In this document: piece after piece, positions 28,946-50,717 of the stretch
Layout: the number at the start of each line of letters is the position of its first letter
How positions within the stretch are numbered: position 1 is the first letter of the stretch
Notes under the pieces: generated by a model
What the model was told of the DNA's origin: nothing
Database searches by the model: none
Seen by the model: only the letters and a program-made list of their open reading frames with translations
Translations under genes and position numbers: made by a program
NCBI RefSeq assembly: GCF_019218265.1
Contig: NZ_JAHUZE010000003.1
Coordinates: 310,001-374,000 of the forward strand
Reading direction: 5' to 3'
DNA length: 64,000 bases
DNA from: Maritimibacter dapengensis
GTDB lineage: Bacteria; Pseudomonadota; Alphaproteobacteria; Rhodobacterales; Rhodobacteraceae

Positions 28946-28954
28946 GGCTCCTCC

Positions 28955-30478: not shown

Positions 30479-30487
30479 GATACGCCC

Positions 30488-31042: not shown

Positions 31043-31043
31043 C

Positions 31044-31073
31044 AAAAAACCCCGGCGCATGAGCGCGCCGGGG
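31044..31073 (-). terminator. Terminator between tctC and tctB
   Basis: On the minus strand CCCCGGCGC - GCTCAT - GCGCCGGGG is followed by TTTTTT, a textbook intrinsic terminator ten bases after tctC. Since tctBA and the downstream genes have no clear promoter of their own, partial read-through would make the binding protein far more abundant than the permease. Confidence 0.85.
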
Positions 31074-31082
31074 CGTCTTTTC

Positions 31083-32021: not shown

Positions 32022-32040
32022 CACGTGTCTCCCTGTTGTA

Positions 32041-32057
32041 GGTTCATTATTTGAACC
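32041..32057. promoter_or_regulatory. Inverted repeat in tctC / iclR divergent promoter
   Basis: GGTTCA-TTATT-TGAACC, 6-bp arms around five bases, 20 bases before the tctC start. This is a plausible operator for the IclR regulator encoded 95 bases away on the other strand; IclR proteins often control the divergent promoter they share with their target. Confidence 0.5.
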
Positions 32058-32151
32058 CGTGGTATCAAAATTCTTGCAGATAGATTCTCTTTCTGTCAAC
32101 GATTGGATTCGAAAGCGGCGCAGATTCATTGCGCTTGAAACGGAAAATGCC

Positions 32152-34285: not shown

Positions 34286-34450
34286 CGTGAAGGCCCGTCC
34301 AAGCTTTCGAGCAGGCTTTGGTTCGCTCAATCAATTCGTCGCCTTTCGTTTGCCGCTCTTTTGAATGAGCGCGCAGAGCAGCTTCCTGCGACCGCTTGCA
34401 TCCGTTTGCCCAACCGGGTTCGTGTCAGATATCTGCCGTGCGCTGCGCGT

Positions 34451-34499
34451 GTTGCGATGTCAATTAGTTGTTGACATTGCAACTCAGCGCGGGAATCCT
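34451..34499 (+). promoter_or_regulatory. Promoter and paired 14-bp operators of the ABC transporter operon
   Basis: The spacer at 34286-34542 holds no gene. GTTGCGATGTCAAT at 34451-34464 and GTTGACATTGCAAC at 34470-34483 form an inverted pair, 12 of 13 positions complementary across a 7-base spacer. The second contains TTGACA (34471-34476), which with AATCCT at 34494-34499 (17-bp spacer) looks like the promoter. Bound protein would cover the -35. The same 14-mer occurs twice at 43051-43100. Confidence 0.7.
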
Positions 34500-34542
34500 G
34501 TTTCTCAAGCCGGAGCCAGAGTTCCGGCGCAGGGAGGACATC

Positions 34543-35712
34543 ATGAAACGTACTATTTCCGGCCTTTCGGCCGCCGCTATGCTTTTGCTTGGAACCAGCC
34601 TTGGTGCCCAGGCAGATACCATCAAAGTGGGCGTGGTCGCGCCCTTTTCCGGCCCCTTCGCGCTCTACGGCAAACAATTCCAGGAAGCCATTCAGGTCTA
34701 CCAGGCCGAGCATGGCACAACCGCAGGCGAGCATGAAATCGAATTCATCTACAAGGATTCGGGCGGGCCGAACCCGGATCAGGCGCGCAGTCTGACACAA
34801 GAACTGCTCATCAAGGATCGGGTCGACTATCTGGCGGGTTACGTATTCACGCCGAATGCGATGGCGGTTGCGCCGCTGCTCGATCAATCCGAGACACCGC
34901 TCGTGATCTTCAACGCCGCGACCAGCGCGATCAACGCGCAGTCGGACTACTACCTGCGCACCTCCTACACGCTGTGGCAGGTGTCGATGCCAATGGCGGA
35001 ATGGGCCTATGACCAGGGGATTCGGTCGGTGGTGACTGCGGTCAGTGACTATGGCCCCGGAATCGACGCCGAGAACGCATTCGTCGCTGCATTCCAGGAG
35101 GCTGGCGGCGAGATCAAGGATTCGATCCGTATGCCGATGAGCACCACGGACTTCACCCCCTTCATCCAGTCGATCCGCGATCAGGCGCCTGACGCTCTGT
35201 TCACGTTCCTGCCCGGTGGGCCTCCGACCTTCGGCTTCACAAAGACCTACAACGAAAACGGTCTGCGCGACGAGGGAATCATGTTCCTGGGCACGGCTGA
35301 GACCGAGGAATCGAACCTTCAGGCGTTCGGGGATGCGGCAATCGGGTTGACCACGGCCTATCATTATTCCGCCGACCACGACAGCGACCTGAACCGCGCG
35401 TTCATTGCGAAGAACACCGAGATGCACCCGGATAGCGTAACCAATTGGGCGACCATCGGAGCCTATGACGGCACGCACCTGATCTACGAAATGGTTGAAG
35501 CTGCCGGCACCGATGGACCGGCCGCGATTGAGGCCGCCAAGGGACTGGAGTGGGAAAGCCCGCGTGGCCCGCTGGTCATGGACCCGGAAACGCGGACCGT
35601 CGTGCAGAACGTATATATCCGCGAAGTGGAACGCGACGAAGAAAGCGGGCTTCTGGTCAACCGCGAGAAGGGCGTGATCGCCACCGTGGGCGATCTCGGC
35701 TGGGGCAAGTAA
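34543..35712 (+). CDS. ABC transporter substrate-binding protein (branched-chain amino acid / aromatic type)
   Basis: A 389-residue type I periplasmic binding protein (Peripla_BP_6). The signal peptide MKRTISGLSAAAMLLLGT continues to SLGAQA and is cleaved before DT. The mature start IKVGVVAPFSGPFALYGKQF and the later YLAGYVFTPNAMAVAPLLDQ are typical. AGGGAGGACATC precedes the ATG. Binding proteins of this class take leucine-like amino acids, but many in soil and marine bacteria bind aromatic acids (for example the CouP/HbaE groups). The following genes for CoA ligase and thioesterase support an aromatic ligand. Confidence 0.92.
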   Translation: MKRTISGLSAAAMLLLGTSLGAQADTIKVGVVAPFSGPFALYGKQFQEAIQVYQAEHGTTAGEHEIEFIYKDSGGPNPDQARSLTQELLIKDRVDYLAGYVFTPNAMAVAPLLDQSETPLVIFNAATSAINAQSDYYLRTSYTLWQVSMPMAEWAYDQGIRSVVTAVSDYGPGIDAENAFVAAFQEAGGEIKDSIRMPMSTTDFTPFIQSIRDQAPDALFTFLPGGPPTFGFTKTYNENGLRDEGIMFLGTAETEESNLQAFGDAAIGLTTAYHYSADHDSDLNRAFIAKNTEMHPDSVTNWATIGAYDGTHLIYEMVEAAGTDGPAAIEAAKGLEWESPRGPLVMDPETRTVVQNVYIREVERDEESGLLVNREKGVIATVGDLGWGK

Positions 35713-35720
35713 CAAACGCA

Positions 35721-35752
35721 GGGCACGCGGGGGAATGATATCCCGCGTGCCC
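35721..35752 (+). terminator. Intra-operon hairpin between ABC binding protein and permeases
   Basis: GGGCACGCGGG and CCCGCGTGCCC form a perfect 11-bp stem around a 10-base loop, eight bases after the binding-protein stop and 32 before livH. There is no T run. It is the third hairpin in this window placed between a binding-protein gene and its permease genes. Confidence 0.6.
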
Positions 35753-35784
35753 GACGCGCGTGCAGGCAGGACTGAAGGGGCGGC

Positions 35785-36648
35785 ATGTCTCTCTTTCTCA
35801 ATATTCTGATCGACGGGGTCGCCTACGGCATGATCCTGTTCATGATTTCGGTCGGTCTGTCGGTGACGATGGGCCTGATGCGGGTCATCAACCTTGCTCA
35901 CGGCGGGTTCGCCATGGTCGGCGGTGTCGTGGCGCACGTGCTGATGAGCGAGGCGGGCATCGGATATGTGCCGGCGGCCTTGCTCGGGATCGTGGCGACC
36001 GTGGCGCTCGCCTGGCCACTGGAGCGGTTGATCTACCGACGGATTTACGGGTTTGGAGATTTGCAGCAGGTGCTGGCGACCATAGGGCTGACCTTCCTGA
36101 TGATCGCGACCGTGAACCGGCTTCAGGGTTCGTCGTTGCTCGCGTTGCCGCTGCCCACGGTGCTGGCGCAATCCGTTGATCTTGGCTTCCGCACGTTGCC
36201 CTTGCATCGGGTCATCGTGATCGGCGTGGGGGCAGTGGTGATCGTTGGCCTGTGGCTGTTGATCGAACGCACGCGCTTCGGGATCAAGCTGCGGGCTGCT
36301 GTCGATAACCGAGCGACGGCAGGGGCCATCGGGATCAACACCGGTCTGATCTACACCGCAACCTTCTGTCTGGGTGCCGGGCTTGCCGCGCTTGGCGGAA
36401 TTCTGGGAGCCGAGATGTTACCCATCGAGGCCTACTACCCGCTGCGATACATGGTGCTGTTTCTCGTCGTCGTGGCGGTCGGTGGCATGGGGTCCATCGG
36501 CAGGAGTTTCCTGGCCGCGCTCGGGCTCGGATTGATCGAGACCGCGTCGCGTTATCTGGTGCCCGAGTTCGGCACGATTTTCTACTTCGCCTGCATCATC
36601 CTGTTTCTGGCGCTTCGGCCCAAAGGGCTATGGGGGAGGTTGGCATGA
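35785..36648 (+). CDS. Branched-chain amino acid-type ABC transporter permease (LivH type)
   Basis: A 287-residue inner-membrane permease with about eight hydrophobic helices. Its family landmarks are LSVTMGLMRVINLAHGGFAMVG near the N terminus and GGMGSIGRSFLAALGLGLIE near the C terminus. It is the first of four overlapping genes, ending with an ATGA overlap onto the second permease. Confidence 0.92.
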   Translation: MSLFLNILIDGVAYGMILFMISVGLSVTMGLMRVINLAHGGFAMVGGVVAHVLMSEAGIGYVPAALLGIVATVALAWPLERLIYRRIYGFGDLQQVLATIGLTFLMIATVNRLQGSSLLALPLPTVLAQSVDLGFRTLPLHRVIVIGVGAVVIVGLWLLIERTRFGIKLRAAVDNRATAGAIGINTGLIYTATFCLGAGLAALGGILGAEMLPIEAYYPLRYMVLFLVVVAVGGMGSIGRSFLAALGLGLIETASRYLVPEFGTIFYFACIILFLALRPKGLWGRLA

Positions 36649-37598
36649 CGCGGCTCATGCGTATTCCCTTTGCTGTCGAGGCGCTGCTGATCGCGCTCCT
36701 GGTGATCGCGTTCTTCGCATTTCCGTACAACCTCGCCTTCGTGACCCGCATTCTGATCATGGTGCTGTTCGTGCTGTCCATTGATCTGGTGTTGGGGTTT
36801 GCTGGCATCGCCACGCTGGGACAGGCGGCGCTCTACGGGACCGGCGCATATGCTGCAGGGCTCTTTGCCGTTCATGTGACAGCGGCGCCCCTGCCCGGAC
36901 TTTTGATCGGCATGGTCGCCGGGGCGGCATTGGCATTCCTGTCGGGGCTTGTGCTGCTTCGGACCAAGGGTTTGACGCTCATCATGCTGACCATCGCGGT
37001 TGCGCAGATTTGTCAGGAGGTCGCCAACAAGGCACGGGACGTGACCGGCGGTGCGGACGGTCTGCGTGGTATTCGCATGGAGCCGGTGCTGGGATTGTTC
37101 GAGTTCGATTTCATCGGGATCACCGCTTATTGGTATGTCGCGATCGTCGTGTTCATCGTCTTCCTCGCGCTCAAGCGACTGGCAGCGGCGCCTTTGGGCC
37201 TGTCGCTGAGGGGAATACACGAAAGCCCTGAGCGAATGCTGGCCATCGGTGCGCCTGTCTATCGGCGTCAGGTGTTGGCCTATACTCTGGGCGGGGGCAT
37301 CGCAGGCATCGCGGGCGCACTGGCAGCTCAAGTGACACAACTCGTGAGCCTCGAGGTCTATTCCTTCACCCTCTCCGCCGAAGCTCTGATCATGCTGATC
37401 CTTGGCGGGACCGGACGGCTCTGGGGGGCGATCGTGGGCGTCGTTCTGTTCATGACCGTGCACCATGTCGCGGCGAGCGCGGACCCATACAACTGGCTCT
37501 TCTTCATCGGGTTCATGGTGCTGGGCGTCGTGTTCTTCCTTCCGGGCGGGATGATCCGACTGCCACAGGCGCTCTTGCGGCTTGGGAGGCAGCGATGA
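36645..37598 (+). CDS. Branched-chain amino acid-type ABC transporter permease (LivM type)
   Basis: A 317-residue permease pairing with the LivH-type protein. SIDLVLGFAGIATLGQAALYG and the C-terminal GGTGRLWGAIVGVVLF are diagnostic, and roughly nine hydrophobic segments are visible. The start is the ATG at 36645, which overlaps the preceding stop; the longer frame from 36630 has no support. It also ends in an ATGA overlap with the ATPase gene. Confidence 0.92.
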   Translation: MTRLMRIPFAVEALLIALLVIAFFAFPYNLAFVTRILIMVLFVLSIDLVLGFAGIATLGQAALYGTGAYAAGLFAVHVTAAPLPGLLIGMVAGAALAFLSGLVLLRTKGLTLIMLTIAVAQICQEVANKARDVTGGADGLRGIRMEPVLGLFEFDFIGITAYWYVAIVVFIVFLALKRLAAAPLGLSLRGIHESPERMLAIGAPVYRRQVLAYTLGGGIAGIAGALAAQVTQLVSLEVYSFTLSAEALIMLILGGTGRLWGAIVGVVLFMTVHHVAASADPYNWLFFIGFMVLGVVFFLPGGMIRLPQALLRLGRQR

Positions 37599-38347
37599 GC
37601 GCGGGGTTGCAGGTCCGGGGGCTGCAAAAATCCTTTGGCGGGATCATCGTCGCCGATGACATCAATGTCGACCTCGCGCCGGGTGCTCGGGTCGCGCTGA
37701 TCGGTCCCAACGGGGCGGGGAAGACGACGTTCTCCAGCCTTATCACTGGCAAACTGACGCCGAACGCGGGAGAGATCACGCTCGATGGGCAGGACATCCG
37801 CCCACTGGGCGAGGCGGATCGTGTCAAGGCGGGGATCGCCAAGACCTTTCAGATCACCACGCTGTTCCGCGACCTGACGGTGCGTGACAACCTGCGCCTT
37901 GCCGCGCAGGAGCGGGACGGACGAGCGCGGGCATGGTTCAAACGAGCCGACAGCTGGGCCGAGGTTGAACGCGAAATTGACGCGCAACTTGCCGCCTTCC
38001 GGCTGGAGGCGCTCGGCGACAAACGGGTGTCTGATCTGGCCTATGGTCAGCAACGGCTGGTGGAAATGGCGATGACGCTGATGCTGAAACCCCGTGTTCT
38101 TATACTCGACGAACCTGCCGCCGGTGTGCCGTCATCGGACAGCCATCTGATCACCGACGCGATCGAGCGGCTGCCCGATGATCTGGCCGTGCTCATCATC
38201 GAACACGACATGAAGCTCGTTTTCCGCGTCGCGCGATCCATCATCGTTCTGGTGAACGGGCGTATCCTGACCCAAGGCGCACCGAATGAGATTGCCGCCG
38301 ACGAACGGGTCCGAGACCTCTACCTGGGGGCGCGCCATCATGACTGA
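37595..38347 (+). CDS. ABC transporter ATP-binding protein (LivG type)
   Basis: A 250-residue ATPase. The Walker A motif GPNGAGKT is at residues 37-44, the signature reads LAYGQQRLVEMA, as is common in LivG, and the Walker B motif is VLILDEPAAGV. The long insertion between them (DGRARAWFKRADSWAEVE) is normal for LivG. It drives uptake together with the LivF-type ATPase whose gene overlaps its last eight bases. Confidence 0.93.
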   Translation: MSAGLQVRGLQKSFGGIIVADDINVDLAPGARVALIGPNGAGKTTFSSLITGKLTPNAGEITLDGQDIRPLGEADRVKAGIAKTFQITTLFRDLTVRDNLRLAAQERDGRARAWFKRADSWAEVEREIDAQLAAFRLEALGDKRVSDLAYGQQRLVEMAMTLMLKPRVLILDEPAAGVPSSDSHLITDAIERLPDDLAVLIIEHDMKLVFRVARSIIVLVNGRILTQGAPNEIAADERVRDLYLGARHHD

Positions 38348-39053
38348 GCCGGTTCTCAACCTGAAAGGTGTAGTGGCTGGGTACGGTGACACGACCGTGT
38401 TGCATGGCCTCGACCTGACCGTGGCGCAGGGCGAGCGCTTGGCCATAATCGGACGTAACGGGGTGGGCAAGACCACGCTTCTGGCGACCGTCATGGGGCT
38501 GACGCGGCTGCATTCCGGAACCATCTGCACGAACGGACAGGACGTGAGCGGACTGGCCGCTCACAGACGGGTCTCGGCCGGCCTCGGGCTGGTGCCCCAG
38601 ACGCGCGATATCTTCCCGAGCCTTTCGGTCGAGGAAAACCTGATTGCAGGGCTACGCGAGGATGCGCGGCTCGAAGAGGCGTACGAACTGTTTCCCAGGC
38701 TCGCGGATCGGCGCACCAACGGGGGCGGGCAGCTTTCCGGCGGCGAGCAACAGATGCTCGCCATTGCGCGCACGCTTCTGGGGCGCCCTTCGCTCTTGAT
38801 GCTGGACGAACCACTCGAAGGGCTGGCTCCGGTGATCTGCGACATGCTGATGGAAACGTTCGAGCGGATTGCGGCGGACGGGAAACACACGGTGCTTCTG
38901 GTCGAACAACACACCGAGCTGGCGCTGGAATTCGCCGAGCGGGTGGTCATTCTGGACGCAGGCGAGATCGTCGAGGACGCGAACACCGAGGAATTGCGCC
39001 GCGATCCGACGCGGATCGAACGGCATGTGGGCGTAGGAATGGGCGCGACGTAG
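38340..39053 (+). CDS. ABC transporter ATP-binding protein (LivF type)
   Basis: A 237-residue ATPase with Walker A GRNGVGKT at residues 38-45, the intact signature LSGGEQQMLAIARTL and Walker B LMLDEPLEGLAP. The start is the ATG at 38340, overlapping livG by eight bases; upstream extensions are in livG. It completes the five-gene transporter and is followed after 72 bases by a MarR regulator on the same strand. Confidence 0.93.
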   Translation: MTEPVLNLKGVVAGYGDTTVLHGLDLTVAQGERLAIIGRNGVGKTTLLATVMGLTRLHSGTICTNGQDVSGLAAHRRVSAGLGLVPQTRDIFPSLSVEENLIAGLREDARLEEAYELFPRLADRRTNGGGQLSGGEQQMLAIARTLLGRPSLLMLDEPLEGLAPVICDMLMETFERIAADGKHTVLLVEQHTELALEFAERVVILDAGEIVEDANTEELRRDPTRIERHVGVGMGAT

Positions 39054-39125
39054 CCGCCCATTACCCTTGACTTGCCGCGCGTCACAACGCAGTTCGGCAC
39101 GAAACATGGCTATGGGGCCGAAGAC

Positions 39126-39647
39126 ATGGCGAAGGACGACAAGACCAGCACGGGCAAGACATGCCCCGAGGCGCGGATTTCAAGCCCGACCAAAGTGCTG
39201 GATGACGGGCACACGGTGTTGGATATCAACACCTACATCCCCTACTTCCTGTCTTCCGTAAACAACGCCCTGTCGTCGGGGGCCTCGGCTCAATACCTGC
39301 GCGACTACGGAATCGGGATCGTGGATTGGCGCGTTATTTCGATGCTCTCCATCGAACCGGGCATTCCGGCGGCACGGATCTGCAATGTCGTGTCCCTCGA
39401 CAAAGGGGCCACAAGCCGATCTCTGTCGAAACTGAGCGACATGGCGCTTGTGACCTTCGAGGCGATGGAAAACGATCCGCGCCGCCGCATCTGGACGCTG
39501 AGTGAAGCGGGATACGAGATGCACGACACCATTCTTGCCGCCGCGTTGGAGCGCGAACGCCAGTTGATCGACGGAGCGGACCCCGACGATCTGGAGGCTT
39601 TCCTGCGCGTCATCCGCGTGATGCGTAGGAACGTGGACAACCTCTGA
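39126..39647 (+). CDS. MarR family transcriptional regulator (ABC transporter locus)
   Basis: A 173-residue winged-helix regulator. After an unusual 35-residue hydrophilic N-terminal extension come the dimerisation helix (NNALSSGASAQYLRDY), the helix-turn-helix (PAARICNVVSLDKGATSRSL) and the wing (AMENDPRRRIWTLSEAGY). The ATG at 39126 is preferred; a TTG at 39072 is possible but has no ribosome-binding site. Its place between the transporter and the convergent CoA-ligase operon makes it the first candidate to bind the 14-bp GTTG-N6-CAAC palindromes that flank this region. Confidence 0.87.
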   Translation: MAKDDKTSTGKTCPEARISSPTKVLDDGHTVLDINTYIPYFLSSVNNALSSGASAQYLRDYGIGIVDWRVISMLSIEPGIPAARICNVVSLDKGATSRSLSKLSDMALVTFEAMENDPRRRIWTLSEAGYEMHDTILAAALERERQLIDGADPDDLEAFLRVIRVMRRNVDNL

Positions 39648-39656
39648 CGCGCCCCT

Positions 39657-40073
39657 TCACTCGCCTTTGAAACGGGCCACGAGCTCGGCCGGAATCGGCG
39701 CGGATTTGATCCCGCGTTCAGGGTCTTTCACGGTCCAGACGCGGGTTTCCGTGCCTTCGACACAGATCTTGCCATCCTTGGTCAGTGTATGGGTGATGTC
39801 GAAACTCCGGTCCTTGATCTCGGAAAACGCGGTCGTGATTTCCACATCATCGCCGTATCGACAGGGCGCTTTGAACACCGCACGGGTATCGACCAGCGGG
39901 CAACCGGCGGCGCCAAAATGGGCCAGCATCTCTTGCTTCGGCCAACCTGCGGCTTCGTAGAGCATAGCGGTGCCATGATCGAACCAGCGGAAAAACTGAG
40001 GATTGAAGACGATTCCGGCAGGGTCGCAATCGCCCCATTCCACGCGGCGGGTCAGGGTGCTGGACAGCATCAT
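39657..40073 (-). CDS. Acyl-CoA thioesterase (4-hydroxybenzoyl-CoA thioesterase family)
   Basis: A 138-residue hotdog-fold protein. WGDCDPAGIVFNPQFFRWFD contains Asp17, at the same position as the catalytic aspartate of Pseudomonas 4-hydroxybenzoyl-CoA thioesterase, and the surrounding PAGIVF...FFRWFD is the family motif. It would hydrolyse an aryl-CoA, or act as a safety valve that frees CoA. Its start overlaps the stop of the CoA-ligase gene as ATGA, so ligase and thioesterase are made together. It converges on the MarR gene with 9 bases between stops. Confidence 0.9.
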   Translation of the reverse strand: MMLSSTLTRRVEWGDCDPAGIVFNPQFFRWFDHGTAMLYEAAGWPKQEMLAHFGAAGCPLVDTRAVFKAPCRYGDDVEITTAFSEIKDRSFDITHTLTKDGKICVEGTETRVWTVKDPERGIKSAPIPAELVARFKGE

Positions 40074-41485
40074 TTGTTCCTCTCGTCGAAGACGCGTTTC
40101 GCCTTCATCTCGGATTTGGGGAGCGTGTTCGGCGCAACGGTCTCGACCGCGCAGCGCACCTCACACCGCGAGCGGATTTCGCGGGCCACCTGATCGGACA
40201 CGTCGCTGTCGTGTTCGACCAGGACGGTCATGACGTCCAAGCCGTCGTCCTTGGTGGTGAGGCGGATCTGGAATTCGTCTCCGGTGCCGGACACGGCGCG
40301 CACGGCCTCTTCGATCTGGACGGGGAAGAACTTGATCCCCCGCAGGTTGATGAGGTCGTCCGAACGCCCCGTCATGCAGCCGAGTCCCTTCACGTGATTC
40401 CGACCACAGGCACAGGGCTCATACGACAGGCGCGTGTAATCGCCGACAAGGAACCGAAGCTGCGCCGAGCTTTCGGAATTGAGATTGGTACAGACCGAAA
40501 GCCCTTTTTCGCCAGCGGCCACGGGGTCCAGCGTGTCGGCGTCCACGGTTTCCCAGAACTGGATGTCCTCCATCAGGTGGATGAAGGGTTCATCGCCCTC
40601 CTGATATTCCGGGCAGGAGTAACCACCGCAATGGGGCGACGCTTCGGTGCAACCGTAGAACTCGACGGCTTTCGCAGCCCAGAGATCCTGCAACCGTTCG
40701 AGCGTGCCCGAGACACCCGAGAACGGCTCGCCCCCCGTGACCATCCATTTCACCGAAGTCTTTGCGGGATCCATCCCCATATCCTGCATCACGCGCCCGA
40801 GATAAAGCGCGTAGGACGGGGTGCACACCAGTACCGTAGGTTTGAACCTGTCGATGAACGAGGCGCGGGCGTGACCGTCCACGCCTCCACCGGGCACCAC
40901 CGGCAGGCCCATCTTGGCCAAGGTGTATTGCACGCCCCAGGCGAACACATGCGGGCCGAAACCGACCATGGGTATCGCGCTGTCACCTTGGCGCAGCCCA
41001 CCGGAGTAGAGTGCGCGGGCGTTGGCCTGTTCCCACATGGTGCGGTCGAAATGGGTATAGCGGAACACCCGCGGCGTGCCGGTCGAACCGGATGAGGAGA
41101 AAAGCATCCAGCCGCGATCGTTCCAGTCGTCATCCGAGCAGGTGGTATAGGTGCCGAAGGGCGGGTTTTCGGTCGCGTCCTCCATCATCTCCTGCTTGGT
41201 GACGATGGGCCAGTTGGCGACAAGGCTCGCGGTGTCCGTCAGATCCGTAGGCGCGACACCGAGCGTGTCGAAACGGCGGCGGTAAAAGGCGCTGTTTTCG
41301 TACAGAAACGGCGCAACTGCGGCAATTTTCTCGTTCTGAACCGCTTCGATCCGGTCGCGGGACCACGTGTCTTTGTCCGACCAGTAATCGGCGGTGAGCG
41401 GGCTCGAGCGGTCTTCGTGATATTTCGAGAGCACCGCTTTCCACGTCTTGCGCGTCTCCTCCGCGCGGGCGCTGGTATGCGTCAT
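40070..41485 (-). CDS. Phenylacetate-CoA ligase family protein
   Basis: A 471-residue AMP-forming ligase of the PaaK branch. SSSGSTGTPRVFRYTHFDR is the P-loop region, GGEPFSGVSGTLERLQ and EFYGCTEASPHCGGYSCPEY follow, and the C-terminal GRSDDLINLRGIKFFPVQIEE is the hallmark of phenylacetate-CoA ligases. It adds about 35 residues compared with PaaK. No paaABCDE epoxidase genes are nearby, so the substrate may be another arylacetate, or the aryl-CoA may feed a pathway elsewhere. AGGGAGGGAAAAG precedes the ATG. Confidence 0.88.
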   Translation of the reverse strand: MTHTSARAEETRKTWKAVLSKYHEDRSSPLTADYWSDKDTWSRDRIEAVQNEKIAAVAPFLYENSAFYRRRFDTLGVAPTDLTDTASLVANWPIVTKQEMMEDATENPPFGTYTTCSDDDWNDRGWMLFSSSGSTGTPRVFRYTHFDRTMWEQANARALYSGGLRQGDSAIPMVGFGPHVFAWGVQYTLAKMGLPVVPGGGVDGHARASFIDRFKPTVLVCTPSYALYLGRVMQDMGMDPAKTSVKWMVTGGEPFSGVSGTLERLQDLWAAKAVEFYGCTEASPHCGGYSCPEYQEGDEPFIHLMEDIQFWETVDADTLDPVAAGEKGLSVCTNLNSESSAQLRFLVGDYTRLSYEPCACGRNHVKGLGCMTGRSDDLINLRGIKFFPVQIEEAVRAVSGTGDEFQIRLTTKDDGLDVMTVLVEHDSDVSDQVAREIRSRCEVRCAVETVAPNTLPKSEMKAKRVFDERNK

Positions 41486-41505
41486 CTTTTCCCTCCCTAG
41501 AAAAG

Positions 41506-41532
41506 CCCCGGCGATGAATGCACCGCCGGGGG
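41506..41532 (-). terminator. Hairpin after the GcvT/LigM-like gene
   Basis: On the minus strand CCCCGGCG - 10 bases - CGCCGGGG is followed by CTTTTC. It lies between the methyltransferase-like gene and the CoA-ligase gene and probably terminates part of the transcripts, lowering expression of the downstream ligase and thioesterase. Confidence 0.6.
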
Positions 41533-41540
41533 AACGTGGC

Positions 41541-42992: not shown

Positions 42993-43050
42993 GGTTTCCT
43001 CCCTCTTGGCCCGGCATCGCGGCCGTGTCCGGATAGACCGACACAAGCTT

Positions 43051-43100
43051 GTTGCGATGTCAACGCCGTGACAATGTCGGGATCGAGTTGCAATGTCAAC
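43051..43100 (-). promoter_or_regulatory. Promoter with two direct 14-bp operators, GcvT/LigM-like operon
   Basis: On the minus strand GTTGACATTGCAAC (43100-43087) and GTTGACATCGCAAC (43064-43051) are direct repeats 36 bases apart, one mismatch between them. The first copy is identical to the site at 34470-34483. Its TTGACA with CATTGT 17 bases on forms a plausible promoter, so the operator covers the -35. The region also lies at the 3' end of the LysR gene. Confidence 0.7.
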
Positions 43101-43103
43101 ACG

Positions 43104-44015
43104 TCATTTTCCAGCCTGCGCCCCGACCGCGCGTAACAGGTCGAGAAACGCCCGCGCTGCAAAGGTCAAAGACCCGCGACGGCGGCGGTAAATGTAGAGG
43201 TCCCGCTTCCACGCGAGCGCGGGAACATCGAGTTTCCGGATCAGGCCGAGGTCCACCTGATGGGTGAGAAGCGATTCCGGCATCAAGGTGACCAGGGGCC
43301 CGGCAAGAAGCGCATTGATCGCCACGGTGAGTGAACGGGTCTGCACCGCCAACTCCGGCGCGGGTGCGGATTGGGCGTGATAGACCTCGCGCAGCTTGTA
43401 ATGCGCGATGCTGTCCTCGGTGACCATGACCCAGCGATAACGCGACAAGTCCGCAAGCGTGGGACGGGCGTGATCGCACAGCGGATGGTCGCGGTTCACA
43501 TAGACCTGCCACCAGTCGCTTGTGATGTATTCTTGCTCCAGATCGAACTGGCTGGTCCCCGACACCGTCCCCGCAATGGCGAGGTCGATCTTCCCAGCCA
43601 GAAGATCGTCGATCAAACGGTCCTCGATGGCGTCCGTGATCCTGAGATGGATGTTGGGATGCGCTTTGAACATCTCGTCCATGGCGCGCCGCAGAAGCGG
43701 ATCGACCGCCCCTGCCACACAGCCGATCCTGAGCGTGCCCGTGGTCGCGCCCGAGATCGACCGAAGCTCTTCCAGCGCCGATCCCCAATCCGCGAGCAAC
43801 AGCTCGGCGCGCGGCAGAAGCGCCTGACCATGGGGGGTAAGCGTCATGCCCAAGGGGTGCCGTTCGAACAGCTGCGCTCCCACGTTTTCCTCAAGATTGC
43901 GGATGATCCGCGATAGGGCAGGCTGCGTGATATGCAGGTGTTCGGCAGCCCGTCCGAGCGAGCGGACCTGCGCGACTGTGACGAAGGCCGAAAGGTGACG
44001 ATTGTTGAGAGTCAT
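43104..44015 (-). CDS. LysR family transcriptional regulator
   Basis: A 303-residue LysR-type regulator. The N-terminal helix-turn-helix (LGRAAEHLHITQPALSRIIRN) begins about residue 20, and the effector domain starts near residue 90 with TGTLRIGCVAGAVDPLLRRA. It is divergent from the TRAP-IorAB operon, the usual arrangement for a LysR activator and its target, and its gene ends just before the operator region of the methyltransferase-like gene. The effector is probably the TRAP substrate or a derived aromatic acid; that is inference. Confidence 0.93.
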   Translation of the reverse strand: MTLNNRHLSAFVTVAQVRSLGRAAEHLHITQPALSRIIRNLEENVGAQLFERHPLGMTLTPHGQALLPRAELLLADWGSALEELRSISGATTGTLRIGCVAGAVDPLLRRAMDEMFKAHPNIHLRITDAIEDRLIDDLLAGKIDLAIAGTVSGTSQFDLEQEYITSDWWQVYVNRDHPLCDHARPTLADLSRYRWVMVTEDSIAHYKLREVYHAQSAPAPELAVQTRSLTVAINALLAGPLVTLMPESLLTHQVDLGLIRKLDVPALAWKRDLYIYRRRRGSLTFAARAFLDLLRAVGAQAGK

Positions 44016-44048
44016 AACGTTATTGCATGGCTTTTAACGAGATAAGCA

Positions 44049-44062
44049 GTTGCGCAATCAAC
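44049..44062. promoter_or_regulatory. GTTG-N6-CAAC palindrome in LysR / TRAP divergent region
   Basis: GTTGCGCAATCAAC agrees with the 14-bp operators at 34451 and 43051 in the outer GTTG/CAAC and in 11 of 14 positions. One such 8-base match is expected by chance in a window of this size, so on its own it is weak; its place in the third promoter of the same gene group is what makes it worth noting. Confidence 0.35.
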
Positions 44063-44205
44063 CCGTCAAGGAAAGACTTGAGCGCATCCGGGCCAAAAAC
44101 AACAGGAAACCGGAGAAAGATCGGGGCTTGATGGTCTTGCCGGCGACTTAGGAGGAGTTGCCGTCAGAACGAAAAATCATGAGTCCCACCATTGGGAGGA
44201 AAACC

Positions 44206-45183
44206 ATGTTCAACAAACTTGCACCGGCTCTGGCCGGAGCCGTTCTGGTCGTCGCCAGTCAGACGGCAACCGCAGAGGTTGCCACGCTGCGCGTCGTCAC
44301 CGCCTTTCCGCAAAACACACCACAAAACATCCCGCTGACAGGATTTGTGGACCACGTGAACGAAACCTGCACCGATAGCGTTCAGCTCGATTTCGTCGGG
44401 GGTCCCGAAGCGGTGCCCACCTTCGAACTGGGCGAAGCCGTGCGGCGCGGTGTCGTGGATGTGGGATACAGTTCGCAGTCGTTCTACGCCTCGATCGTAC
44501 CCGAAGCCGCCGCGATCAAGCTGTCCACCAACACCGTCGCCGAACAGCGCGAGAACGGTGGCCACGAGCTGTTGAACCAGATCCACCAGGAACGGATGAA
44601 CGCGGTCTATCTCGCACGGACTCACGAGGACGTGCCGTTCTACCTGTATCTGACCGAGGAGGCCGATCCGCTCGACCTCTCCGGCAAGAGCCTGCGGATC
44701 GCCCCCGTCTACCGCGCCTTCTTCGATACGCTCGGCGCGCAACTCGTCCAGACTCCTCCGTCGGAGATGTACACTGCGGTCGAACGCGGTGTCGTTCAGG
44801 GGCTTGGCTGGACGAGCCTGGGCATCTTCGATTTCGGACTTCAAGAGCATCTGAAATACCGGGTCGAACCTGGCTTTTACCTGTCGGACGGCAACGTGCT
44901 GGTGAACCTGGACAAGTGGAACGGCCTGTCCGAAGCCGCGCAATCCTGTCTGAACGAAGCTGCCGTCTGGATCGAAGGTCAGGGGCAGGAGATGGCGGAC
45001 CTGTCCGTGGAGGACCTTGCCAGACAGGCCGAAGCCGGGATCGAGGCCCTGGAATTGACAGGCGAGGAGCGGGACGAGTTTCTGCGCCGCGCGTCTGACG
45101 CAGGCTGGGCGGAAATCGAAGAGCTCGCACCCGACAACGCCGCAAAGCTGAAAGAGCTTCTTGCTCCTGAGAGCGCCAGCTAA
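44206..45183 (+). CDS. TRAP transporter substrate-binding protein (DctP type), second system
   Basis: A 325-residue periplasmic receptor with signal peptide MFNKLAPALAGAVLVVASQ followed by TATA and cleavage before EV. The segments PLDLSGKSLRIAPVYRAFF and ERGVVQGLGWTSLGIFDFG match the DctP fold, with the arginine of LRIAP as the likely carboxylate anchor. GGGAGGAAAACC precedes the ATG at 44206; frames to 44158 cross it. The gene opens an operon in which dctQ follows after only three bases, without the intervening hairpin seen in the other systems. Confidence 0.92.
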   Translation: MFNKLAPALAGAVLVVASQTATAEVATLRVVTAFPQNTPQNIPLTGFVDHVNETCTDSVQLDFVGGPEAVPTFELGEAVRRGVVDVGYSSQSFYASIVPEAAAIKLSTNTVAEQRENGGHELLNQIHQERMNAVYLARTHEDVPFYLYLTEEADPLDLSGKSLRIAPVYRAFFDTLGAQLVQTPPSEMYTAVERGVVQGLGWTSLGIFDFGLQEHLKYRVEPGFYLSDGNVLVNLDKWNGLSEAAQSCLNEAAVWIEGQGQEMADLSVEDLARQAEAGIEALELTGEERDEFLRRASDAGWAEIEELAPDNAAKLKELLAPESAS

Positions 45184-45186
45184 ACC

Positions 45187-45684
45187 GTGGCGGTGTTTCT
45201 GCGTATCTTCGATGCCGTGCTGAAAGGTGCGGCCATGATTGGCGCGGCGCTCATTGCCCTCACCGTGGTGACCACGGTGGGGGATGTGATCGCCCGTCAG
45301 ATCGGATCGAAGCTGTTTTACTGGCAGGTCGATTTCGTCGAACTTGCGCTGATGGGGTCGGCATTTCTGATTGCGCCGTGGCTCCTGTCGCTCGGCGCCC
45401 ACGTGCGCGTGGATGTGGCTGTGACAATGCTGCCCATGCGGATGGGCGCGGCATTGAACCGTATCGCCAATCTGCTCGGCACCCTCATCTGCGCGGTTCT
45501 TGCTGTCTACGCATGGCAGGAGGTTACAGGCTCGGCCACACGCGGGAGCCTGATGATCCGCAGTTTCGTCATTCCCGAATGGTGGGTGCTGACCGTCGCA
45601 CCCTTCGCCTTCGTCACCCTGACCGTCGAATTCGCGCTGCGCACGCTGGGCGTGCGAGACAGGCGCGAAACCGTGGGGATTTGA
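45187..45684 (+). CDS. TRAP transporter small permease (DctQ type), second system
   Basis: A 165-residue protein with four hydrophobic helices: the first spans AAMIGAALIALTVVTTVGDV, then ELALMGSAFLIAPWLLSLGA, LLGTLICAVLAVYAWQEV and WWVLTVAPFAFVTLTVEFA. This is the DctQ layout. The start is a GTG, three bases after the binding-protein stop. The dctM ATG follows two bases after its stop. Confidence 0.9.
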   Translation: MAVFLRIFDAVLKGAAMIGAALIALTVVTTVGDVIARQIGSKLFYWQVDFVELALMGSAFLIAPWLLSLGAHVRVDVAVTMLPMRMGAALNRIANLLGTLICAVLAVYAWQEVTGSATRGSLMIRSFVIPEWWVLTVAPFAFVTLTVEFALRTLGVRDRRETVGI

Positions 45685-45686
45685 CC

Positions 45687-47006
45687 ATGGAATGGTATTG
45701 GGCGCTTTCGCTTCTCGTCGGGCTGGTCGTGTTCCTGATGGTCATCGGGCTTCCGGTCGCCTTCGTGTTCCTCGGTGTGAATGTTGTCGGAGCCTACCTG
45801 TTTCTCGGCGGCACGATGGGGTTGGGGCAGGTGGTGCGCAACGGCGTGCAATCGCTTCAGAACTACTCGCTCGCGCCCATACCCATGTTCATTCTCATGG
45901 GCGAACTCATGCTCCATTCCGGCATGGCAGGGGCCGCGATCCATGCGGTCGAGCGGCTGATCCGAAAGGTGCCCGGACGGATGCCGATTGTCTCGGTCGT
46001 GGCGGGTACGCTTTTTGCCGCTCTGTCGGGGTCGTCTATGGCGAACACGGCGATGCTGGGAAGCTCACTCTTGCCGCAGATGTTGAAGTCCGGCTATGCC
46101 CCGCGGCTGGCCATCGGCCCGATGGTGGCGGTCGGCGGGATCGCCATCCTCATTCCGCCGTCTGCCTTGGCGGTGCTTCTGGGGTCGCTCGCCAAGATCT
46201 CGATCGCCGCGTTGTTGGTGGCGGGGATTGTCCCAGCGCTCATCATGGCGGTGCTCTTTGTCGGATACATCCTGATCCGTGCCCTGGCCGGCGACGACGT
46301 GAAGGAGGACGTGGCGCCGGACGGGGGTGGCTTCTTCCAACGCGCCTGGCCGTTCCTGCGCGACGTGTTGCCGCTGTTTCTGATTTTTGTGGCCGTGGTC
46401 GGGAGCCTACTGGCGGGAATCGCCACACCAACCGAAAGCGCCGCCATCGGTGTGGCCGCGACGGTGATCGCCGGCCTCGCCTATCGCCGTCTGAGCATTG
46501 GCGTGATCGGCAAGACGATGATGGAGACCGCCAAGATCTCGGCAATGATCCTGTTCATTATCGTTGGGTCGATTACCTTCTCGCAGATCCTCGCCTTTTC
46601 CGGCGCGGCGTCTGGCCTGCTGTCGGTCATAACCGCATTCGAACTCACGCCGCTCGAAGTCATCCTTCTGGTGCTGGTCGTCCTGCTGCTTCTGGGCTGC
46701 TTCATCGACCAGGTGTCCATGATGATGATTACGCTGCCGTTCTTTCTGCCGCTGGCAAATTCGGTCGGGGTCGATCTCATCTGGCTGGGGCTGGTGTATC
46801 TTCTGAGCCTCGAGATCGCGCTCATCACGCCACCCTTCGGGCTCCTGCTTTTCGTGATGAAAGGCGTGGCACCGAAAGAGATATCCTTCGGCACCATAAC
46901 CATGGCAACGCTTCCGTTCCTCGGCATTCAAATGGCGGTCCTGGTGCTGATCGTGATCTGGCCCGAGATCGCGCTGTGGCTACCCAAGCTGCTCCTCGCA
47001 AACTGA
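45687..47006 (+). CDS. TRAP transporter large permease (DctM type), second system
   Basis: A 439-residue membrane protein with at least eleven hydrophobic segments. SGSSMANTAMLGSSLLPQM, GGIAILIPPSALAVLLG, ATPTESAAIGVAATV and ALITPPFGLLLFVMKGVAP are the conserved DctM blocks. The ATG at 45687 is the family start; the longer open frame lies in dctQ. Sixteen bases separate it from the IorA-like gene, so transport and oxidation are in one operon. Confidence 0.93.
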   Translation: MEWYWALSLLVGLVVFLMVIGLPVAFVFLGVNVVGAYLFLGGTMGLGQVVRNGVQSLQNYSLAPIPMFILMGELMLHSGMAGAAIHAVERLIRKVPGRMPIVSVVAGTLFAALSGSSMANTAMLGSSLLPQMLKSGYAPRLAIGPMVAVGGIAILIPPSALAVLLGSLAKISIAALLVAGIVPALIMAVLFVGYILIRALAGDDVKEDVAPDGGGFFQRAWPFLRDVLPLFLIFVAVVGSLLAGIATPTESAAIGVAATVIAGLAYRRLSIGVIGKTMMETAKISAMILFIIVGSITFSQILAFSGAASGLLSVITAFELTPLEVILLVLVVLLLLGCFIDQVSMMMITLPFFLPLANSVGVDLIWLGLVYLLSLEIALITPPFGLLLFVMKGVAPKEISFGTITMATLPFLGIQMAVLVLIVIWPEIALWLPKLLLAN

Positions 47007-47022
47007 CGAATTAGAGACTGAT

Positions 47023-49173
47023 ATGGCTGAACGTTCCTTCGCAAAAGAAGTCCAGGACCTGTGGATCGGGGAAGGCGAGACCTTTCGCGGTGAGGGGATT
47101 CTCGGCATCACCAAGGCGCTCTTGGAGTGCGGTGTGGGATATGTGGGCGGCTATCAGGGTGCGCCGATTTCACACCTGATGGATGTGCTGGCGGATGCGC
47201 AGGACATTCTTGGCGAGCTTGACGTTCGGTTCGAGGCCAACGCATCCGAAGCCGCCGCGACCGCGATGCTCGCCGCCAGCGTGCACTACCCGATCCGCGG
47301 CGCCGTGGCGTTCAAGGGGCCAGTCGGGGTGAACGTGGCCTCGGATGCCCTGGCCAACCTGGCGTCGGGCGGGGTCACCGGTGGGGCGATGTTGATCGTG
47401 GGCGAGGATTACGGCGAAGGCTCGGCCATCATGCAGGAACGCAGCCATGCCTTCGCAATGAAGTCGCAGGTCTGGCTTCTGGATCCGCGCCCAAATCTGG
47501 TGTCCATGACCAAGGCGGTGCGCGACGGTTTCGAACTGTCGGAGGCCACCAATACCCCCGTCATACTGGAACTCCGCATCCGCGCCTGTCACGTCCACGG
47601 CACGTTCGAGGCCCGGGACAACCAACGCCCGCCCTTGTCCGTGCGCGAGGCACTGTCGGCCCCGCGCCGCGATCCCAGCCGCCTGGCCCTGCCCCCGTTC
47701 GCCTATGCGCATGAACATGAAAAAGTCGAAAGCCGCTGGCCACGTGCGATCGAGCACATCATGGACAACGGGCTGAACGAGCGCATGGGACCAAAAAACG
47801 CCAAGATCGGCGTGGTGGTGCAGGGCGGTCTCTATAACACCCTGAACCGCGCGTTGGAGCGTCTGGAACTGGCCGATGCCTATGGCAATTCGGACGTGGA
47901 AATCTACTGCCTCAACGTGACCTATCCCTTGGCCGAGCCGGAGTTTCTGCGGTTCTGCGAAGGCAAGGACGCGGTGCTGGTGGTCGAGGAAGGCCAGCCC
48001 AATTACATCGAACAGGCGCTCGGCGGGATGCTGCATCGAAGCGACCTGCCAACACGCGCCTATGGCAAAGGCTACCTGCCAATGGCCGGGGAGTATCAGG
48101 CGCCTGTGATGTTGGAGGGTCTGCGCGGGTTCCTCGCCGATCATGCGCCCGACATGCTCTCGCCCGCGCTTCGTGCGCCGAACCGGAGCGAAACCGAAGT
48201 GCCGGAGATTGCCGACGCGGTGCCCGCCCGCCCGCCGGGGTTCTGCACGGGGTGCCCCGAGCGTCCGATTTTCGCAGGGATGAAGCTGATCGACGAGGAA
48301 ATCGGCCCGCACCAGATCGCCTGCGACATCGGCTGTCATCTGTTCTCCGTCCTGCCGCCCTTCGATCTTGGCGGCACCACGATGGGGTTCGGTCTCGGCC
48401 CTGCCTCCAATGCCGCCTTCGATGGCGGCGGCGAACGCAGGGCGATCTCGGTGATGGGCGACGGGGGGTTTTGGCACAACGGGCTTGCTTCGTCCGTGGG
48501 CAACGCCGTGTTCAACAAGTCCGACAACGTGATCGTCATCGTCGACAATTACTATGCCGCGGCGACAGGGGGGCAGGACATTCCCTCGTCCCGCTCGAAG
48601 AACCCGACCAAACAGACCGGCAATTCCATTGAAGGGGCCGTGCGCGGAATCGGCGTCAACTGGGTTCGCACCATTGACCGTACCTATGACGTCGCCAAGG
48701 TGCGCGACACATTGCGCGAGGCGCTGACCACCGATGCCGAAGGCCCCAAGGTCATCATCGCCTCGTCCGAATGCATGCTCAACCGTCAGCGCCGTGAGCG
48801 GCCCGAAAAGGCAAGGGCGATTGCCGAGGGGCGACGGGTCCTGCGCCCGAAATTCGGGGTGGATGAAGATGTCTGCACCGGCGACCACGCCTGTATGCGG
48901 CTATCGGGCTGTCCGTCTCTGACACTCAAGGAACTGGACGATCCACTGCGCGATGATCCGGTCGCGTCGATTGACGAAAGCTGCGTGGGCTGCGGCAATT
49001 GTGGCGAGGTGGCGGATGCCGCCGTGCTGTGCCCATCGTTCTATCAAGCCGACGTCATCGAGAATCCGGGCCGGTGGGAAGCCGCGCGCGACCGCATGAC
49101 ACGCCGGATCATCGTTTGGCTGCAGAACCGCCGCGCCGCCAAGCGGCTGATGTTCGAGGAGGTCGCGGCATGA
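47023..49173 (+). CDS. Indolepyruvate:ferredoxin oxidoreductase alpha subunit (IorA type)
   Basis: A 716-residue thiamine-pyrophosphate enzyme subunit that would decarboxylate an arylpyruvate to an arylacetyl-CoA and pass electrons to a ferredoxin. Order of domains: pyrimidine-binding domain at about 20-200 (GYQGAPISHLMDVLADA), the CTGCPERP motif near 410, the TPP-binding block with MGDGGFWHNGLASSVGNAV near 490, and a C-terminal iron-sulfur domain from about 610 with VCTGDHACMRLSGCPS and SCVGCGNCGEVADAAVLCP. The cysteine pattern matches the family. It is coupled by ATGA to the beta-like subunit and follows a TRAP operon. In aerobes such enzymes often serve amino-acid-derived or lignin-derived arylpyruvates. 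Confidence 0.9.
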   Translation: MAERSFAKEVQDLWIGEGETFRGEGILGITKALLECGVGYVGGYQGAPISHLMDVLADAQDILGELDVRFEANASEAAATAMLAASVHYPIRGAVAFKGPVGVNVASDALANLASGGVTGGAMLIVGEDYGEGSAIMQERSHAFAMKSQVWLLDPRPNLVSMTKAVRDGFELSEATNTPVILELRIRACHVHGTFEARDNQRPPLSVREALSAPRRDPSRLALPPFAYAHEHEKVESRWPRAIEHIMDNGLNERMGPKNAKIGVVVQGGLYNTLNRALERLELADAYGNSDVEIYCLNVTYPLAEPEFLRFCEGKDAVLVVEEGQPNYIEQALGGMLHRSDLPTRAYGKGYLPMAGEYQAPVMLEGLRGFLADHAPDMLSPALRAPNRSETEVPEIADAVPARPPGFCTGCPERPIFAGMKLIDEEIGPHQIACDIGCHLFSVLPPFDLGGTTMGFGLGPASNAAFDGGGERRAISVMGDGGFWHNGLASSVGNAVFNKSDNVIVIVDNYYAAATGGQDIPSSRSKNPTKQTGNSIEGAVRGIGVNWVRTIDRTYDVAKVRDTLREALTTDAEGPKVIIASSECMLNRQRRERPEKARAIAEGRRVLRPKFGVDEDVCTGDHACMRLSGCPSLTLKELDDPLRDDPVASIDESCVGCGNCGEVADAAVLCPSFYQADVIENPGRWEAARDRMTRRIIVWLQNRRAAKRLMFEEVAA

Positions 49174-50717
49174 ACGATCAATTCATCCTGCCCGTAGGCA
49201 GCTTTACCCACGCCGAGGGGTTGTTGAAACTCTCGGTTCATGCCGTCGGCGGACAAGGCGGGGGTGTGCTGACCAACTGGATCGTCGCCTTGGCCGAAGC
49301 CAACGGATACTACGCGCAATCCACGTCCGTGCCGGGTCTGGCCCAACGGACCGGTTCCACGATTTACTATGTCGAGATGATGCCCGCGACCGAAACCACC
49401 CCGGTGCTGGCCCTGATGCCCGCGCCGGGAGACGTGGATGTGGTCGTGGCGTCCGAGATGATGGAAGCGGGGCGCGCGGTCGAGCGCGGGTTCGTCTCGG
49501 CCGGCCGTACCACGGTCATCACCTCGACCCATAGGGTCTATGCCACCTCTGAAAAGCTTATCCCGGGTGACGGTCGGGCCGACAGAGAACGTGTGCTCGA
49601 GCTGACCCGCGCGTCCGCGAAACGTACGGTTGCCTTTGACATGCACGACTTTGCCAAACGGTCGAAAAGCCATGTCTCGGCCAGCCTTTTCGGCGCGCTT
49701 GCCGGTTCTGGAGCACTGCCCTTTCCGGTTGAGAGCTACGTGTCCGTGATCGAAGCGTCAGGGCGCGGGGTCGCGGCGTCGCTCGATGCCTTTCACAAGG
49801 CGCGGGAGGCGGCGCAAACCGGTGTAGACGAGGCCGCGAACGCGCCTGTGGCCAAACGCGCGGAAGTGCGTGGACCCGAGAAAAAACGCGCCGAATGGCA
49901 GCGGCTTCTGACGCGCGTCGAGGCTCTTCCTGGGCCGGTTGCCGAAATGGCCAAGGCCGGACTGCGCAAAGTGGCCGAGTTTCAGGACGAACGACTTGCA
50001 GGCGACTACCTGACCACCGTCGAAGAGGCCGTAGCGGGCGATGATGCGGATCATATGTGGCTCTATTCCACCACGTTTGCCAAGTATCTTGCGAACGCAC
50101 TGTGTTACGACGACCTGATCCGCGTCGCGGACCTCAAGACCCGCGCGGCGCGGTTCGCCCGTGTGCGCGACCATGCGGATCCGAGTGACACTGCCCTTCT
50201 ACGCACGACCGAATACATGCACCCCCGCGCCGAGGAAGTGGTCGGGATGTTCCCTGCTGCACTAGGCCGCAAGGTCGAAGCGTCGCCAAAGCTCTTCGCG
50301 TGGATCGACCGGCGGGTGAACAAGGGGCGGCGCTATCGCAGCGACGGGATCGTTGCATTTGTCGCGCTCTATATGCTTGGCGGGTTGAAGCCTATCCGGC
50401 GCTTCACGCTACGGGACGCACAGGAGCGGGAACACCGCGAGGCGTGGCTCTCCTATGCCCGCCACCTGCTGCCACGCGACTATGATTTGGCGGTCGAGGT
50501 CCTCGCCTGTCGGCGATTGATCAAGGGCTATTCTGACACCCATGCTCGGGGACTATCCAAGTTCGATCTGGCCATGCAGGGCGCGCGCAAGCTCGAGGGT
50601 CGTGCGGACGCCGCCGAATGGCTGCGCCGGCTCCGCACCGCAGCCCTGTCGGACCCTTCAGACCAACCTCTGCGCGATGCGCTTAAAACCGTGGACAGTT
50701 TTCTCGACGCCGGTTGA
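49170..50717 (+). CDS. Indolepyruvate oxidoreductase beta-type protein with C-terminal DUF6537
   Basis: A 515-residue partner of the IorA-like subunit. The first 190 residues are the gamma/beta pyruvate-oxidoreductase domain (KLSVHAVGGQGGGVLTNWIV and STSVPGLAQRTGSTIYYVEM). The remaining 320 residues are alpha-helical (for example AEWQRLLTRVEALPGPVAEM) and correspond to the extension seen in the long fused enzymes of aerobic proteobacteria, DUF6537. Stand-alone archaeal IorB is only about 200 residues. Here the enzyme is split into two genes with an ATGA overlap rather than fused. The role of the extension is unknown. Confidence 0.85.
   Translation: MNDQFILPVGSFTHAEGLLKLSVHAVGGQGGGVLTNWIVALAEANGYYAQSTSVPGLAQRTGSTIYYVEMMPATETTPVLALMPAPGDVDVVVASEMMEAGRAVERGFVSAGRTTVITSTHRVYATSEKLIPGDGRADRERVLELTRASAKRTVAFDMHDFAKRSKSHVSASLFGALAGSGALPFPVESYVSVIEASGRGVAASLDAFHKAREAAQTGVDEAANAPVAKRAEVRGPEKKRAEWQRLLTRVEALPGPVAEMAKAGLRKVAEFQDERLAGDYLTTVEEAVAGDDADHMWLYSTTFAKYLANALCYDDLIRVADLKTRAARFARVRDHADPSDTALLRTTEYMHPRAEEVVGMFPAALGRKVEASPKLFAWIDRRVNKGRRYRSDGIVAFVALYMLGGLKPIRRFTLRDAQEREHREAWLSYARHLLPRDYDLAVEVLACRRLIKGYSDTHARGLSKFDLAMQGARKLEGRADAAEWLRRLRTAALSDPSDQPLRDALKTVDSFLDAG

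Follow-up and report, generated by a model that had tools for sequence, protein, structure and literature searches.

Two adjacent gene modules for the putative catabolism of aromatic acids in Maritimibacter dapengensis

Do the genes between positions 34286 and 50717 of a 64,000-nucleotide stretch of the Maritimibacter dapengensis genome (contig NZ_JAHUZE010000003.1, positions 310,001 to 374,000; the whole stretch is called the window here) encode one pathway for an aromatic acid, or more than one? A previous reading made from the bare sequence had proposed a single route, with import of a methoxylated aryl acid or arylpyruvate, oxidative decarboxylation to arylacetyl-coenzyme A (CoA) and O-demethylation onto tetrahydrofolate (THF). 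We find that the region consists of two gene modules that are conserved separately. Module A (34468-43046) comprises livKHMGF for an ATP-binding cassette (ABC) importer and, as identified by family searches, genes for a MarR-type regulator, a 4HBT thioesterase, a PaaK-like ligase and a relative of the O-demethylases LigM and DesA. Module B (44158-50717) comprises dctPQM for a tripartite ATP-independent periplasmic (TRAP) importer followed by iorA and iorB.

Layout and conservation of module A

Gene identities were taken from the listing of open reading frames (ORFs) together with Pfam and NCBIfam profile searches of the window proteins, and the features are as follows.

34468..35712, + strand: livK, substrate-binding protein of the ABC importer (Pfam Peripla_BP_6)
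35785..36648, + strand: livH, permease (Pfam BPD_transp_2)
36630..37598, + strand: livM, permease (Pfam BPD_transp_2)
37595..38347, + strand: livG, ATPase (Pfam ABC_tran)
38286..39053, + strand: livF, ATPase (Pfam ABC_tran); the ORF overlaps livG and the actual start probably lies inside it
39072..39647, + strand: MarR-type regulator gene (weak NCBIfam MarR-type matches; no Pfam match at E<=1e-5)
39657..40073, - strand: 4HBT thioesterase (Pfam 4HBT_2; nearest to 4-hydroxybenzoyl-CoA thioesterases)
40070..41485, - strand: PaaK-like acyl-CoA ligase, forming adenosine monophosphate (AMP) (Pfam AMP-binding and AMP-binding_C_2)
41506..41531, - strand: G+C-rich stem-loop with an 11-pair stem, between the demethylase and ligase genes
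41541..43046, - strand: LigM/DesA-like relative of THF-dependent O-demethylases (Pfam GCV_T, NCBIfam, structures and tree); 483 residues from an inner ATG (41541-42989), 501 for the full ORF from TTG
43104..44015, - strand: LysR-type regulator, between modules A and B (Pfam LysR_substrate and HTH_1)
44158..45183, + strand: dctP, TRAP solute-binding protein, relative of Polaromonas Bpro_4736 (Pfam DctP)
45187..45684, + strand: dctQ (Pfam DctQ)
45687..47006, + strand: dctM (Pfam DctM, 248.6 bits); an ORF overlapping it, 45692-47014, is without a Pfam match
47023..49173, + strand: iorA, alpha subunit binding thiamine pyrophosphate (TPP), with a C-terminal cysteine region (Pfam TPP_enzyme_C)
49170..50717, + strand: iorB (Pfam POR and DUF6537; NF006179/PRK08312)

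All genes named in the sequence-only reading lie where it had placed them and matched their families in Pfam and NCBIfam; its inventory had missed the MarR-type gene, and the frame of dctM needed correction to the one given above.

A genome collection was scanned with a query made by aligning the window demethylase to one relative, which led to 19 loci (L numbers below), of which we took up to 10 kilobases (kb) on each side; some of these neighbourhoods end at contig ends, L051, L059 and L061 among them. The nearest named demethylase is that of Maritimibacter alkaliphilus HTCC2654 (93% identity), with the proviso that the scan may omit records very near the host. A 4HBT gene lies near the demethylase gene in 17 of the 19 loci, a PaaK gene in 13 and a MarR gene in 12, while a LivK of the window type (64-94%) is found in nine and another liv-type importer in six. 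Less frequent neighbours are a thiolase of the type seen in L047 (3/19), IorAB (1/19) and a methylenetetrahydrofolate reductase, whose gene in L057 immediately precedes that of the demethylase (1/19). The order demethylase, PaaK, 4HBT recurs in 13 of the 19 loci, which database labels assign to Roseobacteraceae, Paracoccaceae and Rhizobiaceae, and in three of those 13 (L047, L048, L060) the thiolase gene is inserted between the demethylase and ligase genes. This recurrence is beyond chance. Where PaaK is absent, in L053, L055 and L058, a FadD-like AMP-ligase cluster lies nearby (the family was searched for the L053 member only). A shared neighbourhood in other genomes, for which the sequence-only reading had suggested a search, thus exists for the order of module A, and it does not extend to IorAB, which accompanies module A in just one of the relatives. 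By these neighbourhood counts a single conserved pathway across the whole range is ruled out.

The edges of module A were judged in the same 19 loci. The window LysR is not conserved, with weak matches of 29-32% in three of them. No tblastn match at E<=1e-8 was obtained in any of the 19 for the two kinds of gene upstream, class-III aminotransferase and IclR, which therefore probably lie outside the module. Within the host's family (198 genomes), 32 genomes hold a LigM/DesA-like match, but scores at the level of the window's clade occur only in the host and in one other genome (G162, 749 bits), the remaining ones reaching at most 424 bits. The demethylase clade is rare.

A demethylase relative with altered residues

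The protein that had been read as a GcvT relative close in length to LigM and DesA is related to both. It carries PF01571 (GCV_T, aminomethyltransferase folate-binding domain; 133 bits) and scores 490 bits against NCBIfam DesA (cut-off 800) and 452 bits against LigM (cut-off 580), both below the equivalog cut-off; GcvT (89 bits), sarcosine oxidase alpha (54) and dimethylsulfoniopropionate (DMSP) demethylase (30) score far lower. Its closest solved relatives are the LigM structures 5tl4/5x1i (392 bits). The competing placement among sarcosine or DMSP demethylases is rejected on the scores of 54 and 30 bits against 490 for DesA; this rejection is drawn from family scores, the rows of our tree including no sarcosine or DMSP enzyme.

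The tree, of 63 rows of fetched sequences, covers the window and all of the 19 loci except L061, whose frame falls into pieces of less than 350 residues. Also dropped were two duplicate rows (one matching the window, the other L059), additional fragments from these loci and matches without a locus. The window and the 18 loci form one clade (support 100/100), apart from LigM and from the sole protein that exceeds the DesA cut-off; the sister group of this clade is unsure, and the tree program warned of long branches. In all, 39 near-fixed positions separate the 19 clade rows from 27 LigM-type rows. Among them, R122, R147 and R151, arginine in 27/27 LigM-type rows, are replaced by N, M and N in 19/19 clade rows, and R245, likewise arginine in 27/27, by I in 18/19, whereas Q57, H60 and Y247 are invariant in the 46 rows compared and W256 is also kept. 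Residues are given in native numbering, which we infer to be the chain index minus 4. We take R122 to be the residue that binds the substrate carboxylate in LigM, and Q57, H60 and Y247 to belong to the LigM active site.

Judged from these profiles and residues, the window protein is a relative of THF-dependent aryl O-demethylases in which the catalytic-type residues are kept, and its substrate could be either a free acid or a CoA ester. With LigM and DesA, the THF-dependent vanillate and syringate O-demethylases of Sphingobium SYK-6, it has in common family, length, the GCV_T domain and Q57, H60, Y247 and W256. It differs from them in its separate clade, in scoring below both cut-offs, in the four replaced arginines and in being encoded beside ligase and thioesterase genes. 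Two additional relatives (44% and 43%) are encoded in the host genome, which also contains a paralogous liv cluster (L038, contig C3:275079-282104; LivK 58%) that is flanked by LigM/DesA relatives at 35% and 30%.

Directly 3' of the demethylase gene lies the G+C-rich stem-loop, whose sequence differs among the window and 13 related loci. Its opening run comprises at least 11 paired bases in 12 of these 14, being absent in L046 and L056, and in nine of the 14 at most 2 of 200 shuffled sequences folded as well (window, 0/200; a longer stretch of the window, 3/200). The corresponding numbers of shuffles are 6-11 in L047, L048, L049 and L046, and 125 in L056. The element may stabilise, process or partly terminate the transcript. 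Scanning for promoters gave no site, against a shuffle mean of 2.0, and the 12 terminator-like sites compare with a shuffle mean of 10.0 (sd 3.7), so that the scan overall is not above shuffles.

Substrate hints and the TRAP-linked iorAB genes

The kinship of the encoded proteins, in family and in structure, agrees with the idea of aromatic-acid importers and enzymes of the aryl-CoA type that had been formed from the sequence. LivK is nearest to 4f06 (384 bits) and 4evs (383 bits) over nearly its full length, followed by 4ey3/4eyg/4eyk (300 bits). The nearest solved relatives were crystallised with 4-hydroxybenzoate-type ligands according to the entry titles, some of which are incomplete, and those at 383-384 bits are the benzoate-derivative binders RPA0985 and RPB_2270 of R. 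palustris; for the window protein such a ligand is a prediction. DctP matches Polaromonas Bpro_4736 (4mnc/4mni) with 246 bits, the next solved protein reaching 42 bits, and the same two entries rank first and second in a Foldseek search with a weak model. In a fold search of the same type, likewise with a weak model, coumarate and ferulate binders rank 33rd and lower for LivK. The models (mean pLDDT, the predicted local distance difference test, 43.9 for LivK and 55.8 for DctP) are too poor for pocket analysis. With benzoylformate, which we take to be the ligand of Bpro_4736 (4mnc), the solved relatives suggest benzoates for LivK and benzoylformate for DctP, and an arylglyoxylate is therefore a better fit than an arylpyruvate.

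The closest structures to the thioesterase are 5wh9 and 1bvq, both 4-hydroxybenzoyl-CoA thioesterases. Its D17, the nucleophile according to PMC516016, and its D32, there assigned the contact to the hydroxyl group, are kept in 17/17 module copies. They are kept also in six more distant thioesterases, and D32 is hence weakly diagnostic. The ligase is equally far from the structures of PaaK and 2-hydroxyisobutyryl-CoA synthetase (about 180 bits each) and scores 225 bits against NCBIfam PaaK (equivalog cut-off 646). Ligase orthologues found in other families have as neighbours a purD gene (L234) or lie near xseA (L233). Those in L237, L235 and L238, at 53-54%, stand near oxygenase genes, Rieske-type in L237 and PhyH-type in L235 and L238; an ORF in L236 has the same length as the Rieske gene of L237.

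In module B, IorB scores 627 bits against NF006179/PRK08312, above the cut-off of 348, and IorA scores 274 bits against TIGR03336, below the cut-off of 651. IorA contains the TPP motif GDG at residue 479 and CVGCGNC at 654; the strict pattern CxxCxxCxxxC was not found in it. The pair thus resembles the split indolepyruvate oxidoreductase in its IorB and in the TPP motif of IorA, but departs from it in the low IorA score and in its TRAP neighbours, which suggest an arylglyoxylate substrate.

A match to DctP occurs in 26 of 240 genomes of the host's class, and regions were fetched for 12 of the 25 other than the host. IorAB stands beside DctP in 9 of the 11 best relatives in the class (window excluded). 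The exceptions are G055 and G427, the latter a contig of 5.5 kb, and the twelfth and weaker relative, G381, likewise is without IorAB. No demethylase, PaaK or close 4HBT was detected in the fetched TRAP-IorAB loci of the class. In the 198 genomes of the host's family, IorB is present in 42, DctP in 37 and both in 16, and in five of these 16, host included, the two genes start at most 15 kb apart. L123 (51%) and L124 (47%) each have a 4HBT relative placed between iorB and a TRAP set. Another 16 loci of the family (L105-L117, L119, L121 and L122) have the split IorAB near genes for an oxidoreductase dependent on flavin adenine dinucleotide (FAD) and/or a cyclase (PF04199), often together with a peptide-type binding protein.

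Elsewhere in the window, an Amidohydrolase_2 gene adjoins ORFs that resemble a transporter set by size and order (16075-19940). Consecutive UPF0261, aldehyde dehydrogenase, TctA and TctC genes (26229-32315) possibly belong to another carboxylate pathway.

Favoured reading and its rivals

We favour the reading that two catabolic modules for aromatic acids lie side by side in this marine bacterium, and give it a probability of about 0.5. Gene content, family kinship, the conservation of either module, the residue changes and the protocatechuate genes are observed; every substrate, the sequence of reactions and any link between A and B are inferred. In this scheme, LivKHMGF would take up hydroxy- or methoxybenzoate-type acids, the LigM/DesA relative would transfer their aryl methyl group to THF, the PaaK-like ligase would form the aroyl-CoA, and the 4HBT enzyme would cleave hydroxybenzoyl-CoA to hydroxybenzoate, which would enter a protocatechuate branch encoded elsewhere in the genome. 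The TRAP system would take up a benzoylformate-like aryl 2-oxo acid, which IorAB would decarboxylate oxidatively to an aroyl-CoA for the thioesterase and demethylase of module A. That the end product can be handled elsewhere, as had been supposed from the missing ring-cleavage genes, agrees with the genome. An intradiol dioxygenase on contig C9 scores as the beta subunit of protocatechuate 3,4-dioxygenase, above cut-off, with PcaF, PcaI-type and PcaR/PobR-type genes as neighbours; the alpha subunit is present as a fragment (87/193 profile positions, below cut-off) near a contig end, and contig C1 has four LigB-type matches.

Several findings weigh against this reading. The ligase, the demethylase and IorA all score below equivalog cut-offs, and the ligand of Bpro_4736 is a presumed one. 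The six PaaK orthologues in other families (53-59%) adjoin other genes, and no demethylase was detected near them. Among the six best DctP relatives in the host's family, IorB lies within 15 kb only in G062 and G128, with other genes between, and FAD-oxidoreductase and/or cyclase genes occur near IorAB in 16 of the 20 family loci fetched. The window DctP has no close counterpart among the TRAP proteins of L123 and L124. Finally, IorAB is joined to module A in the window and in one of 19 relatives, Sulfitobacter EhC04, whose TRAP binding protein is distant from that of the window (23%; no match at E<=1e-8).

That rarity, and the TRAP-IorAB loci of the class in which no module A enzyme was detected, would also fit two unrelated modules that are chance neighbours without a common substrate. 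We regard this as rather unlikely: in EhC04 one strand carries iorAB and the genes for demethylase, PaaK and 4HBT in succession, the window pairs with EhC04 in the IorA tree (support 92/90, moderate and below the program's strong mark), and 4HBT relatives follow iorB in L123 and L124. The pathway proposed from the sequence, import of an arylpyruvate, its oxidation to arylacetyl-CoA and subsequent demethylation of a homovanillate or indole type, takes its appeal from the IorA and IorB families, which are named after indolepyruvate. It appears very doubtful, for kinship suggests benzoates for LivK and, through the presumed ligand of Bpro_4736, benzoylformate for DctP, and the thioesterase is of the benzoyl type and points to 4-hydroxybenzoyl-CoA; moreover, another DUF6537 protein, in a frame of 1151 residues and probably a fused indolepyruvate oxidoreductase, is encoded elsewhere in the genome.

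Other alternatives concern the order of steps within module A. Two Pseudomonas strains carry fcb operons for 4-chlorobenzoate whose order B-A-C, modifying enzyme, CoA ligase and 4HBT thioesterase, is that of the window genes (PMC516016), and this likeness gave rise to the idea that demethylation takes place on the CoA ester: the ligase would form methoxybenzoyl-CoA, the LigM relative would demethylate the thioester, and the thioesterase would release hydroxybenzoate. Unlike in fcb, the modifying enzyme of the window is a folate methyltransferase relative and the ligase is PaaK-like, and action on a CoA ester is putative. The frequent 4HBT and PaaK neighbours, with the FadD-like cluster where PaaK is missing, the retained D17 and D32 of the thioesterase and the replacement of four arginines beside unchanged Q57, H60 and Y247 are in line with this idea; loss of the presumed carboxylate-binding arginine would fit an ester substrate. 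However, that role of R122 is a presumed one, no structure shows room for CoA, and the four arginines are among 39 clade-separating positions. Of the other 17 rows in the tree, 10 lack R122 too (none with N), so its loss is not special to the window operon. Free-acid demethylation before ligation fits the gene set equally, and we consider demethylation at the CoA level unlikely. Slightly less likely still is the extended version in which the whole folate-dependent clade acts on aroyl-CoA, applying the fcb logic to a methyl ether, and in which TRAP-IorAB opens another way to the same aroyl-CoA, from arylglyoxylates.

On a par with that version we place a beta-oxidative side-chain route, in which the ligase would activate an aryl-C3 acid, a thiolase would yield the aroyl-CoA, the thioesterase would release methoxybenzoate, and demethylation would come last. 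The thiolase gene inserted in L047, L048 and L060, and a 69% relative of the L047 thiolase in the host genome at C3:266122, speak for it, as do two precedents, which count for the favoured reading as well: the ferulate pathway of Agrobacterium fabrum SpG8-1b, which combines a LigM-family demethylase with a CoA ligase, a thiolase and a MetF-like enzyme (PMC7797058), and VceA/VceB, VceB being a vanilloyl-CoA thioesterase (PMC11837543). Yet the thiolase is near the demethylase in just three of the 19 relatives, and LivK is nearest to benzoate binders, with coumarate and ferulate binders far down the weak-model ranking. In contrast to the Agrobacterium pathway, hydratase and dehydrogenase are absent among the window genes searched, the closest thiolase lies elsewhere in the genome, and a 4HBT gene is present.

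Among the literature matches listed, from a collection in which most subscription journals are missing, none shows a pathway with this gene set; the parts are known, and their combination and the altered demethylase look new. If the favoured reading of two adjacent aromatic-acid modules is true, marine bacteria would possess an oxygen-independent demethylation route for methoxylated aromatics that is tied to CoA esters and folate, and a likely substrate class would be at hand for a rare demethylase clade and for TRAP-linked IorAB operons, for which the family name, taken from indolepyruvate, may mislead.

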